A stretch of 64,000 nt of DNA from Rhabdobacter roseus (GTDB taxonomy: Bacteria > Bacteroidota > Bacteroidia > Cytophagales > Spirosomataceae), in contig NZ_JACHGF010000009.1 of assembly GCF_014202275.1 (NCBI RefSeq), positions 62,001-126,000 on the forward strand, written 5' to 3'. The stretch's first letter is position 1. Each line of letters starts with the position of its first letter. Shown piece after piece: positions 2,521-58,141 of this stretch. A program made the position numbers and the translations under genes. The notes below the pieces were generated by a model, which was not told the origin of the DNA, did not search any database, and saw only the letters and a list, made by a program, of their open reading frames with translations.

Positions 2521-2715
2521 CTAACATCTATGTATGCGTAACATACCTAGTTTCGTGTATATCTCCTGTAGCCGAACCATTTGCAATCGTTTACAAACGA
2601 CTATAGCTGATTTTGATACGTTTCTAACTTTTAGTAGCGTAAAAACGATAAGCAAAAGTACCTGCGGCTGCTTGCCAAATATACCATTTACCCCATCAAA
2701 AGCGTAGCTTCCCGG
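2521..2715 (-). repeat. leader repeat of AT-rich island, copy 1
   Basis: Read on the minus strand, this stretch runs from GAAGCTACGCTTTTG to a terminal GTTAGC. It matches 21504-21693 along nearly its whole length. The most conserved part carries the palindrome CGTTTGTAAACG followed by TGCAAATGGTTCGGCTA and ATACACGAAACTAGGT. It ends about 30 bp before the first gene of the island, so it may supply a promoter, an insertion site, or both. I see no integrase or transposase next to it. Confidence 0.75.
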
Positions 2716-2901: not shown

Positions 2902-3222
2902 TTATAGTGCTCCGTCCTTGATTTCGTCCACGATGGCGGGGTCCAGCAGCGTGGAGGTATCGCCGAGGTTGGTGGTATCGCCTTCGGCCACTTTGCGCAG
3001 GATGCGGCGCATGATCTTGCCCGAGCGCGTCTTGAGCAGACCGCTCACAAACTGTACCTTGTCGGGACGGGCAATGGAACCGATCACGCGCGTCACGGTG
3101 GCAGCGATGTCCTTGCGGAACATTTCGGGGTCATCGGGCTTGGTTTCGGTGATGATGTAGGCGTAGATACCCTGCCCTTTGATGCCGTGCGGGTACCCTA
3201 CCACCGCCGACTCCGCCACGCC
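2902..3222 (-). pseudogene. 3' fragment of a second acs (acetyl-CoA synthetase) copy
   Basis: This 321-bp segment aligns without gaps to the last 321 bp of the intact acs gene (4270-4590). I count about 22 base differences but only about four amino-acid changes, among them Pro to Leu at the residue before KTRSGK. The frame is open upstream to 3336, but those extra residues come from unrelated junction DNA with REP palindromes. It has the C-terminal lysine loop only, with no adenylation core, so it cannot make an active enzyme. The excess of silent differences suggests it came from a diverged functional acs rather than from recent local duplication. Confidence 0.85.
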
Positions 3223-4269: not shown

Positions 4270-6159
<1,890 letters not shown>

Positions 6160-21416: not shown

Positions 21417-21503
21417 CGTACTTTTAAAAGTTCCCAACTCAGCAGGGCAAGACAGGCACGGGCCGTTGAATGGAATTTTCTTTTCTTCTTGAAAAAGAGA
21501 AGG

Positions 21504-21693
21504 CCTGGAAGCTACGCTTTTGGTGGGAGAATGGAATATTTGGTGAGAGTGTGTAGGTACTTTGGCTTATAGGCTTTACGCTGCTATAAGTTATGTAAGC
21601 ATCAAAATCAATTGTAGTCGTTTGTAAACGTTTGCAAATGGTTCGGCTATAGCGGATATACACGAAACTAGGTTCGTTTATACAAATGTTATG
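21504..21693 (+). repeat. leader repeat of AT-rich island, copy 2
   Basis: This plus-strand copy of the 2521-2715 repeat runs from CCTGGAAGCTACGCTTTTG to ATGTTATG. It shares the palindrome CGTTTGTAAACG, TGCAAATGGTTCGGCTA and ATACACGAAACTAGGT. It ends about 25 bp before the ATPase gene. In both copies the next genes run away from the leader. Confidence 0.75.
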
Positions 21694-21718
21694 TAGCATT
21701 AATAAATTACAAATCTAA

Positions 21719-23335
21719 ATGAAAATAAAACTACCAACTAAAAAAGGGATTCCAAATACAAACCCTGAAATAGATTTCGAACAATTAGTTATAATAGGAG
21801 CAAATGGTTCAGGTAAAACTAGATTTGGAGCAAAGATTGAAGAAGATAATCATTTAAAAACACATAGAATCTCTGCACAAAAATCCTTATCAATCCCAAA
21901 GTTGGTTAGGCCTACATCCTTAGAAGTTGCTAGAAATGAGTTTTTTATTGGCTCCAATCATCCTCAGCAGAATGTAAATGAAGCTTTGAGTTACAAAAAA
22001 AGTAACCGTTGGGGAGATAATTTTAATACACACTTATTAAATGATTATGAAAAGTTATTAGTCTTGCTGCATACAGAAGAATATGAAACTCTTTCAGACT
22101 CTAAAGAAAAGAACATCCTTTCTCCGATAACAAAAATAGATACTGTAAAATCAATTTGGGAGAAAGTGCTTCCACACCGAAAATTAAAAATAAAATCTGG
22201 TGTTATAGAAACTTACCCGACTGGTCAAGAGGATAATAAATATAATGCTTCGGAGATGAGCGATGGAGAAAGAGTTATCTTTTACTTAATAGGTGAAGTA
22301 ATTTGTTCTCCTGAAAAATCAATGATAATCATTGATGAGCCCGAGATGCATATTCATAAATCACTAGTTAAAACCTTATTTGACCTAATAGAAATAGAAA
22401 GGCCTGACTGTTCATTTATTTATCTGACACATGATATAGACTTTGCATTTACAAGGCAAAATGCGGCTAAAATTTGGGCGAAAGCTTATGAAGGAAATAG
22501 TATTTGGGATTATGAGATTCTAGAAGGTGATATGCCTATTCCTGAACAACTTTATTTAGAAGTTTTAGGAAGTCGAAAACCTGTAATTTTTCTAGAAGGG
22601 GACAATAGCAGCATTGACTATGAAATATATGAGCATGTCTTTCCAACTTATACACTTAAACCATTAGGTAGTTGTGAAAAGGTTATTCAATCTGTAAAGT
22701 CATTTAATGAGCAAAAGGGGTTCCATCATATTGATTCATTTGGGATTATCGACCGAGACAGGCGTCAAGTTGATGATATAGTTAAATTGAATTCAAAAGG
22801 AGTTTGGGTATTAGATGTAGCTGAAGCTGAGAATTTACTCCTAATCGAGGATATAGTTAAAGCAGTGGCAAGCCATATGGGCAGAGATGCAAATGATGTT
22901 TTCGACCAAGTTAAAAGAAATTTGATTTCATTCTTTTCTGACCAAATGGAAGCTCAAATTTTATTGCATTTTAAAGAGTCTTTAAGAAAGAAGTTTCTAT
23001 CACTGACTAATTTTACTAAAAAAAATTTAGATGATGTTTTACCAGAATTAAATACAATGTATCAATCTATTGACAAGCAAAACTTATTTGAAAACATAAA
23101 GCTAGATTTTGAGAAAGCGGCATCAACACAAAACTATGATTCCATATTACAGTTATTTAATCTTAAAAATGCTTTAATTCCTGCCTCAAAAGTTTGTGAT
23201 TTGACTGGTATTAGAAATAAGGAAGAATATAAAAGATTAGTAATAACTATTTTAAAAAGAAAAGACATAGTTAGTGAGCAAATAAGCAAAGGGATTGACT
23301 TGAAAATTATAAAAACGCTACATAACAATAGCTAA
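21719..23335 (+). CDS. AAA ATPase fused to a TOPRIM/DUF4435 domain, candidate anti-phage protein
   Basis: Residues 1-285 form an ABC/AAA_15-type ATPase: Walker A GANGSGKT (27-34), signature-like MSDGER (180-185), Walker B IIIDEPEMHIH (Asp206, Glu207) and a switch histidine (LTHD, His238). Residues 286-400 look like a DUF4435 TOPRIM domain, with FLEGD (Glu293), IIDRDRR (Asp345, Asp347) and DVAEAENLL. The same two domains are split between AriA and AriB in PARIS, and are related to OLD nucleases. Fused forms are known. A defence role is inferred. The gene is AT-rich, carries no GTAC motif, and its stop lies inside an attC-like repeat. Confidence 0.85.
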   Translation: MKIKLPTKKGIPNTNPEIDFEQLVIIGANGSGKTRFGAKIEEDNHLKTHRISAQKSLSIPKLVRPTSLEVARNEFFIGSNHPQQNVNEALSYKKSNRWGDNFNTHLLNDYEKLLVLLHTEEYETLSDSKEKNILSPITKIDTVKSIWEKVLPHRKLKIKSGVIETYPTGQEDNKYNASEMSDGERVIFYLIGEVICSPEKSMIIIDEPEMHIHKSLVKTLFDLIEIERPDCSFIYLTHDIDFAFTRQNAAKIWAKAYEGNSIWDYEILEGDMPIPEQLYLEVLGSRKPVIFLEGDNSSIDYEIYEHVFPTYTLKPLGSCEKVIQSVKSFNEQKGFHHIDSFGIIDRDRRQVDDIVKLNSKGVWVLDVAEAENLLLIEDIVKAVASHMGRDANDVFDQVKRNLISFFSDQMEAQILLHFKESLRKKFLSLTNFTKKNLDDVLPELNTMYQSIDKQNLFENIKLDFEKAASTQNYDSILQLFNLKNALIPASKVCDLTGIRNKEEYKRLVITILKRKDIVSEQISKGIDLKIIKTLHNNS

Positions 23336-23370
23336 AAATCATTAAAACGCTTTTTAGCCCAACCGTTATG
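23321..23370. repeat. compact attC-like repeat at cassette junction
   Basis: CATAAC (23321-23326) and GTTATG (23365-23370) are perfect inverted ends. Inside, GCTAAAAA (23331-23338) pairs with TTTTTAGC (23351-23358). The stop codon of the ATPase gene lies in the left stem. The right half (CTTTTTAGCC..AACCGTTATG..CAGTTTAA..AATCGACAA) recurs at 24300-24355. Confidence 0.6.
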
Positions 23371-23395
23371 GGGCAGTTTAAAATCGACAACGACA

Positions 23396-24184
23396 ATGAG
23401 AAAACCATTTAAAATAGGACAGAAAGAATACAAATTCAAAAAAGATGCAATTACGCATTATCGAACTATTTTAAATTCTTACGACTTTGGACAATCACTA
23501 AATGCTTCCGATTATGACGACCTTATTGACTTATTGGATTATGACTATTTTAATTATTTAGCTGAACTTGAAACGGCTGATGAAAATAGTGAAGAAGAAG
23601 AAATAAGTAATGAAGATGAAAGTGAAGTAGGTAATGAAAACAATGAAGCGGAAATATCAATTGAAGATATAAAAATCGCAAGAGTTCAGTTTAATACTAA
23701 ATGTTTTGAAATTTTTTACAGCGACAAAACAAGTGTATATATTTCATACCTGATGATAATAAATAACACTAAATACACTCCTGAAAAATTATTTTATGTA
23801 GCTTGTAGAAACTCTATTCACGATGATATTAAAACAGTAAAACAAGAGTATTTTGACAAAAATTCAGTGAAAGGGCAAGTTAAATGTCAAGAAACTGGAA
23901 TACTATCAAAATGGACTGAATTAGCCGTTGACCACAGACAGCCAAACACATTTTCGGTTATAGTTGACAGGTTTAAAGAAGTAAATAGAGTTGAATTGAA
24001 TTTGATTAAATATATTTCAAACGACCAAAATCATATAATTTTTAAAGACGATACTTGGACAGGACAATTTAGAAAGTATCATATGGAAAAGGCAAGTTTG
24101 AGAATTGTTCGAACAGAATGTAATTCAAGTAGAACTGGTTTAGCGAGACTTAAACGAACATCAAAAGACTTAATAATCAAATGA
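23396..24184 (+). CDS. DUF3223-like protein, possible HNH-type nuclease
   Basis: This 262-residue AT-rich gene has a DCL/DUF3223-like N-terminus (FKIGQKEYKFKKDAITHYR), then an acidic linker (SEEEEISNEDESE, about 65-95). The C-terminal part has VKCQETG, ELAVDHRQPNTFSV and later RTECNSSR. The Cys, Asp-His and Asn spacing resembles a degenerate HNH fold, so nuclease activity is possible but not shown. It is a cassette between two attC-like repeats. It is not coupled to the ATPase upstream: about 60 bp of repeat separate them. Confidence 0.7.
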   Translation: MRKPFKIGQKEYKFKKDAITHYRTILNSYDFGQSLNASDYDDLIDLLDYDYFNYLAELETADENSEEEEISNEDESEVGNENNEAEISIEDIKIARVQFNTKCFEIFYSDKTSVYISYLMIINNTKYTPEKLFYVACRNSIHDDIKTVKQEYFDKNSVKGQVKCQETGILSKWTELAVDHRQPNTFSVIVDRFKEVNRVELNLIKYISNDQNHIIFKDDTWTGQFRKYHMEKASLRIVRTECNSSRTGLARLKRTSKDLIIK

Positions 24185-24195
24185 AAAACCGACCC

Positions 24196-24325
24196 CATAA
24201 CAGGCGTTTGGCAAAAAAGCGGGTTCAGTGCTTAAATGAAGTTTTGTACTTCGTTTCTAGTCCAGTACTGAAAGAAAGTTTAGTACTTCGAAATCCGCTT
24301 CTTAGCCAAGCCCCGAACCGTTATG
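24196..24325. repeat. attC-like inverted repeat, long form
   Basis: The ends are CATAAC (24196-24201) and GTTATG (24320-24325). GGCGTTTGGC and AAGCGG near the left end face CCGCTTCTTAGCCAAG near the right end. The roughly 130-bp span has a loop holding several GTAC/AGTACT motifs. It separates the DUF3223-like and PAP2-like genes. The frame at 24181-24462 runs through it and is not a gene. Confidence 0.6.
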
Positions 24326-24361
24326 CGATCAGCTTAATGAGAATCGACAAATTCCAAAAAA

Positions 24362-24937
24362 ATGAATTTAAAATTAGCAAAAATACTATCTACAATTGGC
24401 CATCCACTTTTGACAATCCCTACTTCTATAATAATTGCACTTTTCAATTACGAAGACTTTGATAATGCCGCCATAGTTTCTATTTTGGTAATGGTTTGTG
24501 TGATTCTTCCCCTCTCAATAAAAATGTATAAAGGCTCAAAAAGAGGCACTTACACCAACTTTGATATTTCTGATAAAGCCCAACGACAATCTTGGTACAT
24601 ATTTGTCTTGTTTTTGCTATTAATTATTACTGTGATCTTTTTTATCACAAATCAATCACAAGTAGTAAAGTGGAATGCACTCTTTTTCTTTCTTCTTTTA
24701 CTTATCTCAAAGTTTTTAAACTATTATATTAAAAGTTCATTACACGTCTCCTTAAATATTTTCTTAACATTTTTGATTATACCTATTAGTCTAATGCTTG
24801 GGATTATATTTTTATTTTTTATATTCTTTATTTCGTGGTCAAGAATTGTTTTGAAAAGACACACTGAAAAAGAAGTAATTTATGGATGGATAGTTGGACT
24901 GCTTATTGGTTTTTTATCTTTTGCAACCACATTTTGA
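24362..24937 (+). CDS. PAP2-like integral membrane protein, degenerate phosphatase motif
   Basis: This 191-residue protein is very hydrophobic, with about six helices. KSSLHVS stands where the second PAP2 motif (PSGH) is expected, and SWSRIVLKRHTEKEVIYG resembles the third (SRxxxxxHxxxD) with Glu for Asp. The first motif (KxxxxxxRP) is not clear; NFDISDKAQRQ is the nearest. PAP2 enzymes remove phosphate from undecaprenyl or other lipid pyrophosphates. Loss of residues may mean a changed or absent activity. The gene is AT-rich and the last of this island's recognisable cassettes. Confidence 0.65.
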   Translation: MNLKLAKILSTIGHPLLTIPTSIIIALFNYEDFDNAAIVSILVMVCVILPLSIKMYKGSKRGTYTNFDISDKAQRQSWYIFVLFLLLIITVIFFITNQSQVVKWNALFFFLLLLISKFLNYYIKSSLHVSLNIFLTFLIIPISLMLGIIFLFFIFFISWSRIVLKRHTEKEVIYGWIVGLLIGFLSFATTF

Positions 24938-25588
24938 TATTCATAACAATTCTTTAAAAATAAAAATTACACATATACAGTTCCAAAGCAACTTAATGAT
25001 GGAATTATAATTAGCAATCACTCAGTTATTGATAAAGGGCTTTCTTATAAAAATACTGAAGGCATGTTAGGATTATAAATCTATTCAAGACACCTCGTTT
25101 GAAACCCCGAATGGGGCGGTAGTAGTGCATGGTGTCACCCCATTCGGGGTTCTGCCAGTTTTGAATTCCTATTATTTCTATAAACATGGCACCCTTTCAG
25201 GGTTGCTCTTTTTATAAGTAAAACCTGATCCATGAATTGAATTACAAAGACCAAATGGCTACAAAAGGTTTACTCGTGGTCAGAAGAAAGTACCTCGGTA
25301 CTTTGCCAGATCATGCCTGCAAAGGCGTTACATCATTTATGGAGAAAAAGTAAGTACCCTGGCGAATAGCCCACCGCGTGGTCGTATCGACCGTAGAACC
25401 GTATGATTCCGCTGGAATCAGCGGTAGGCCTGGCTCGGCTTTGGGCTATAACGTGGGATTCCTCCGGAATCTTGAAAGACCGACATGAGGTACTTTACCT
25501 GCCATTTCAAGCCTCAATAGCGCTTTTCTGTTGGTACCTATTCTGGCTACTTTGTAGAGAGGTGAGAAATACCACGCTTCTCGCTTGA
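24938..25588. repeat. gene-free stretch with several REP-like palindromes
   Basis: No gene is supported here. The first part (to about 25080) is AT-rich remnant DNA with CATAAC just after the PAP2-like gene. Then come ACCCCGAATGGGG / CCCCATTCGGGGT (25104-25150, 13-bp perfect stem), ACCCT-TTC-AGGGT (25191-25203), GATTCC-GCT-GGAATC (25405-25419) and GATTCC-TCC-GGAATC (25457-25471). Three of these have three-base loops, as REPs moved by RAYT enzymes often do. The frame 25403-25588 is composed of these repeats. Confidence 0.65.
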
Positions 25589-57966: not shown

Positions 57967-58141
57967 GGAAGCGGGGGGGGGGGGGCGGGCCGCGGCGGGG
58001 GGGGGGTGGGACGCCCCGGCGAACCCCCCCAAAACCCCCCGGCCGGGGCGCTGATAAAAGCCCCGCGGGGGGGGGGGGGGTGTCCTTTCGCCGGGGTCAC
58101 AACCCCCCCCCCCCGGGGCCCCCCCCCCCCCCCCCGCTTCC
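57967..58141. other. G/C homopolymer block, possible assembly artefact
   Basis: The block is nearly all G or C runs: 13 G (57973-57985) on the left and 17 C (58119-58135) on the right, with shorter runs between. The ends, GGAAGC and GCTTCC, are inverted. It may be a real large hairpin or a low-quality consensus. No coding potential is credible. Confidence 0.8.

Follow-up and report, generated by a model that had tools for sequence, protein, structure and literature searches.

Dispersed attI-like leaders in Rhabdobacter roseus point to a distinct integron lineage in Bacteroidota

We found that a repeat present twice in a 64,000-nt stretch of the 6.9-Mb Rhabdobacter roseus genome (contig C9:62001-126000, G000; hereafter the window) is very probably an attI site together with about 200 nt of upstream sequence, and that it belongs to a set of dispersed, integrase-less platforms of an integron-like system (probability about 0.87). 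We read the system as an integron lineage of its own, with attI platforms scattered through the genome; its activity we infer from sequence. Inserted units begin TTRNNNNNN, and in many of them the end box is an exact reverse complement of the unit's start, with a covarying hairpin terminating in CGTT behind it.

Two leaders in opposite orientation open AT-rich cassettes in the window

A first-pass annotation had reported that a leader at 2521-2715 (–) recurs in opposite orientation at 21504-21693 (+). When the window was compared with itself, we found this inverted repeat at 2540-2693 and 21525-21678 (154 nt, 80% identity), and nucleotide alignment lengthened it to about 215 nt (~2545-2758 and ~21460-21673); CGTTTGTAAACG is present in both copies. 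Leader copy 1 (2525-2756, –) and leader copy 2 (21462-21688, +) each consist of a type-B attI and its upstream block, and both stop at the common 3' edge of this multi-copy repeat, G^TT. Copy 1 ends ATAGATG^TTAGC with the G at 2525 and copy 2 ends ACAAATG^TTATG with the G at 21688; the crossover would fall between 2525 and 2524 in the former and between 21688 and 21689 in the latter. The endings GTTAGC and GTTATG given in the annotation are correct, whereas the AT-rich genes lie slightly further away than the 25-30 bp it gave, the first ORFs starting 31-37 nt beyond the leader ends (21719 + and 2488 –). GC content drops from 0.52-0.57 in the leader to 0.32-0.36 beyond the junctions.

Promoters of Bacteroidetes have a –33/–7 consensus. 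We considered a promoter in the leader from conserved TATATTTG/TACTTTTG elements but do not claim one, because the spacing of these elements is off that consensus. Rfam gave zero matches in the window and three array loci.

Behind copy 1, cassette 1a (1826-2524, –) encodes a 173-aa protein without a Pfam match (1967-2488, –); its start GTTAGCTGC and end box GCCGCTAAC pair with one mismatch, and its attC hairpin (1815-1954, –) is a covariance model match (C9:63816-63955, E 1e-12). Cassette 1b (1055-1825, –) encodes a Zeta-toxin-like protein (1200-1775, –; Pfam Zeta_toxin, E 5e-12) and holds a small downstream ORF (1055-1207, –). Behind copy 2, cassette 2a (21689-23365, +) encodes a fused AriAB-like protein of the PARIS defence type (21719-23335, +; PADLOC AriAB, E 3e-137). 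The start of cassette 2a, GTTATGTAGC, is exactly complementary to the R'' box GCTACATAAC 1638 nt away, and this box (23317-23326) opens a short-form attC (23317-23374, +) that continues through a hairpin to R' GTTATGGGG from 23365. Cassette 2b (23366-24320, +) encodes a HamC-like protein (23396-24184, +; PADLOC HamC2, E 1.5e-29), its start and end box GTTATGGGG/CCCCATAAC obey the complementarity rule described below, and it closes with an attC hairpin at 24191-24329 (+; covariance model match C9:86192-86329, E 2e-14). Cassette 2c (24321-25030, +) encodes a membrane protein with a weak PAP2 match (24362-24937, +). We searched for an attC at the far ends of cassettes 1b and 2c and found none.

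The cassette cargo contains defence genes: the fused AriAB of the PARIS type, the HamC-like protein and an Old/GajA-like AAA-TOPRIM protein (L050 9415-11271). A REP-like palindrome, CCCCATTCGGGGTT, lies near the ends of cassette arrays (window 25036-25226, L018 4060-4251, L021 7068-7217; 81-91% identical). Elsewhere in the window, at 57967-58141, almost homopolymeric G-rich and C-rich arms of 49 nt stand 77 nt apart.

The leader belongs to a genome-wide family of probable docking sites

Searching with the plus-strand copy gave 17 matches within the R. roseus genome, at E values between 7e-101 and 3e-4, plus one further, weak match in 38 relatives; by these E values the recurrence is far beyond chance. 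The other copies are 71-90% identical to the query and have in common an upstream block, a palindrome, a dyad (ATATACACGAA, a short spacer, TTCGTATAT), about six bases and then G. In nearly all copies homology ends at the same G^TT, a few being degenerate there, and from TT onwards the sequence differs in nearly every copy. GC content beyond the junction usually falls from 0.5-0.6 to about 0.35, and an ORF on the same strand starts 22-63 nt past the junction in 10 of the 14 leaders listed, with genes that differ among leaders.

The leader of the window is of the attI type that we call B. A type-A attI pattern has seven matches in the genome, one of them beside a recombinase on C18, and a reversed type-A control pattern has none in 149 genomes. 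About two dozen such probable docking sites lie around the chromosome.

Leaders often sit behind the ends of core genes. Behind leader copy 1 there is a duplicated acs 3' end (2902-3222, –) with 93-94% identity to the original gene (4270-6159, –; matching part 4270-4590). A coaD-like fragment, named by eye, is duplicated with an attI site three times in C23 (L018), and a dinB-like end, also named by eye, is duplicated behind type-A sites in C10 (L267 3869-4403, L268 3658-4212). Segmental duplication would be the simplest account of where the dispersed leaders came from.

Cassette starts are complementary to the box that opens their own hairpin

An excised integron circle contains one attC, whose two R boxes pair. 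Since the two R boxes of one attC pair, the start of an integrated cassette should complement the box that opens its own 3' hairpin. We looked for this at 17 leaders (16 search matches and the copy on C24), asking for an exact 9-nt partner followed by C within 3 kb. We found that 9 of the 17 leaders obey the rule, as compared to 4 of 272 cross-controls in which starts were tried behind other leaders; with 8 nt the figures are 10/17 and 6/272. Eight junctions fail the 9-nt rule. The rule is also seen in additional arrays. This complementarity between start and R'' is, at the level of sequence, the attI-cassette-attC signature of an integron, and the annotation's suggestion that the repeat is an integron-like attI or cassette leader is borne out by the 17 leaders, the different AT-rich genes behind them and the junctions that obey attI/attC complementarity. 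A leader with no variable cassettes behind it, which would have spoken against that suggestion, describes at most a few degenerate or unresolved copies.

In a wider search of 80 named loci, mostly more distant, 21 have rule-obeying cassettes downstream of the integrase (50 sites, against 2 in shuffled sequence). A further 32 rule-obeying sites lie upstream of the integrase, so some of these loci have their arrays on the other side, or none. In the flavobacterial loci L131, L147 and L184 such cassettes are upstream, not downstream, of an integrase-like gene; these loci may represent a related system with another arrangement.

To describe the hairpin, we derived a consensus from 32 sites of the 118-nt class, which has 16 pairs, 15 of them covarying with both sides changed and pairing kept; the sites had been picked for complementary R boxes and for pairing energy at the hairpin ends, and this stem filter inflates the paired counts somewhat. 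Measured from R box to R box, hairpins fall into length classes of 117-119 nt (40/67) and 178-184 nt (18/67). The loops have an internal period near 18.5 nt in the attC sites of A2 and related loci. A period of 21 nt, guessed from the two length classes, proved wrong, the autocorrelation peaking at 19, 37 and 56 nt.

A recombinase adjoins a type-A attI, and a remnant of a second adjoins type B

The annotation had seen no integrase, which holds for its view but not for the genome: an intact one, lacking the insert that defines IntI, is on C18, and of the integrase proper to the leader family a 3' remnant is left, on C24. The gene on C18 (int1) encodes a 373-aa tyrosine recombinase and overlaps the end of an ssb gene; it is directly upstream of, and codirectional with, a type-A attI and a cassette array. 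We inspected 21 recombinase loci, C18 and 20 from relatives. By inspection, an attI-like site with G^TT lies behind at least 17 of the 21 recombinases, mostly as CGTATAT-N6-G^TT and in some cases as a variant, and rule-obeying cassettes follow downstream in 15, with several others stopping at contig ends.

Among 12 places in the genome with PF00589, only C24 was identified besides C18 as belonging to the system. There, a 3' fragment of int2, 63-71% identical to a larger int2 type, runs into a type-B attI. Thus the leader of the window is probably the attI of int2, and the resident C18 enzyme is the predicted cognate of type A, not type B.

We also observed that ssb adjoins the integrase in most close homologs and in several int2 loci (L050 6705-7046; L083-L096; L077, L079-L082), and not in distant ones; the count lists C18 as 'elsewhere' merely owing to the overlap of the two genes. 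It is possible that this ssb is a dedicated partner of the integrase. An assignment of the N-terminal region as a HARP-like domain was dropped, as it came from one sub-cut-off match in one int2, and a model of the region alone had a pLDDT of 49.

Hairpin-type attC sites are widespread in Bacteroidota

To survey attC sites, we used a covariance model of the hairpin (R1). The R. roseus genome has about 36 sites with E below 0.001, and in a set of relatives with one genome per species there are matches in 100 of 149 genomes, as compared to canonical IntI in one genome out of at least 90 sampled from the class Bacteroidia. Of the 70 genomes with an integrase match, 60 have sites, as do 40 of the 79 without one (odds ratio 5.9, p 5e-6, kinship ignored), and sites are found in 19 of 20 genomes with close integrase homologs. 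The link is not strict, since attC sites are also present in about half of those relatives that have no close integrase match. The annotation had proposed listing leader copies and the genes after them, which yielded the 17 leaders and their different AT-rich genes, and seeking a tyrosine recombinase of matching distribution; one was found next to an attI and an array of its own, and its distribution is correlated with that of attC.

Related integrases are present in named genera such as Runella, Spirosoma, Dyadobacter, Parapedobacter, Pedobacter, Flavobacterium and Maribacter. On a plasmid of Chryseobacterium sp. SNU WT5 (L103), several small genes, all on one strand, follow a related integrase that is 43% identical. 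The viral contigs searched gave only more distant recombinases (35-49% identical).

A restriction of R1-type attC to the class Bacteroidia did not hold, as other classes of the phylum also have it; in the four checked loci there that hold an integrase, it is the system's own integrase that stands alongside. Canonical IntI above cut-off is common in those other classes (105/395 genomes). An earlier survey described integrons as very rare in Bacteroidetes, with integrase-only elements reported first and then a complete Salinibacter integron (PMC9024848).

Relation to IntI integrons and alternative explanations

Much of the anatomy is that of sedentary chromosomal integrons (IntI/attI/attC): an attI beside a tyrosine recombinase, same-strand cassette arrays with a G^TT junction, imperfect hairpin attC sites with complementary R''/R' boxes, and an SPLD-type C-terminus. 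Foldseek ranks the integron integrase 2a3v first, and most arrays in the genome have no adjoining integrase, as in CALINs (attC clusters without an integrase). An ordinary IntI integron, or CALIN debris of the known family, could produce this picture, but we regard it as very unlikely. The IntI-specific insert, or additional domain, is absent in 24/24 int1/int2 proteins and present in 11/11 IntI compared, and the 2a3v alignment splits at the region of the insert. The C18 protein scores 164.8 bits against TIGR02249, below the curated integron-integrase cut-off of 265 bits, and no match above that cut-off was found anywhere in the genome. The attC core is GTTR with freely varying following bases, and only 6 of 57 sites match GTTRRRY and 3 of 57 RYYYAAC. 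The integrase here is codirectional with the array and often next to ssb, there are many dispersed attI without an integrase, and, unlike CALINs, the arrays open with an attI leader and their attC type is not canonical. In a tree of 38 sequences, IntI (91/94) and the Bacteroidota proteins (89/90) are sisters apart from the Xer proteins used, with a thin outgroup and a long-branch warning. Both systems occur together in two genomes, G164 and G444, and there each has a separate attC type: the hairpin model gives no match in the canonical IntI regions (L306, L307), and the R1 arrays (L295, L300) lie beside an int1/int2-like protein. This separation is the best evidence that there are two distinct systems. 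Because the defining feature was tested and is absent, we do not place the system in the IntI-defined integron family.

Movement of these genes by chromosomal XerC/XerD, in the manner of dif modules, is likewise very unlikely. Xer homologs are present in the genome, the core of the leader forms a dyad like those at sites of tyrosine recombinases, and the recombinase shares with XerA/XerC/XerD the catalytic fold and the lack of an IntI insert, a XerA-like protein being the best PDB sequence match of the C18 enzyme; NCBI model NF040815 labels proteins of this kind as site-specific tyrosine recombinase/integron integrase. However, attI lies directly behind int1 in most homologs, attC content tracks int1/int2, and the proteins differ from Xer in having an SPLD-type C-terminus, an extension at the N-terminus and linkage to attI and arrays, and they stand apart from E. 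coli XerC/XerD in the tree; the array anatomy, with hairpins between genes, is unlike that of Xer dif modules (pdif). It is just as hard to see the leader as the terminus of a transposon or MITE by which the neighbouring genes were spread. A short repeat with many dispersed copies, some with duplicated flanks, would suit such an element, but the far ends of the two window islands have no leader-like or shared repeat of at least 40 nt, the edge lies at G^TT and the inserts are accounted for by the cassette rule. A different question is whether the type-B leaders are relics, with cassettes that came while int2 was present and platforms that are now dead. This would be a special case of the attI reading and does not compete with it, and we hold it only tentatively, at somewhat less than even odds. 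The reduction of int2 to a 3' remnant, the divergence among leader copies and the junctions that no longer fit the 9-nt rule favor it, whereas more than half of the junctions remain exact across all 9 nt, and type B might be a substrate of the C18 enzyme.

Proposed mechanism and significance

According to the attI reading, the recombinase would bind the attI dyad and the folded single strand of the cassette hairpin (attC) and would cut between G and TT, so that cassettes could be inserted or excised as circles. It may act in trans on dispersed sites, and cassette genes would be read from the leader side. The cognate enzyme of type B is probably the larger int2 type. Since all that is left of int2 is a 3' fragment, joined on C24 to a type-B attI, the type-B platforms may today depend on the C18 enzyme, or may be relics.

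Taken together, these data suggest that a second integron lineage is likely to exist across the phylum, with its own integrase type (without the IntI insert and often with a dedicated ssb), a separate attC family and numerous scattered attI operated in trans, and that current integron finders miss it. No description of the system was found in the literature, with preprints and most subscription papers lying outside the search. According to Messier and Roy, as cited in PMC2426708, integron recombination requires the IntI insert; if the present system is active, the insert would not be needed to recombine hairpin sites of this kind. Many attI in one genome would break the one-platform model of integrons, and, if active, the system would give Bacteroidota a large, apparently uncatalogued means of gene capture that carries anti-phage defence genes.
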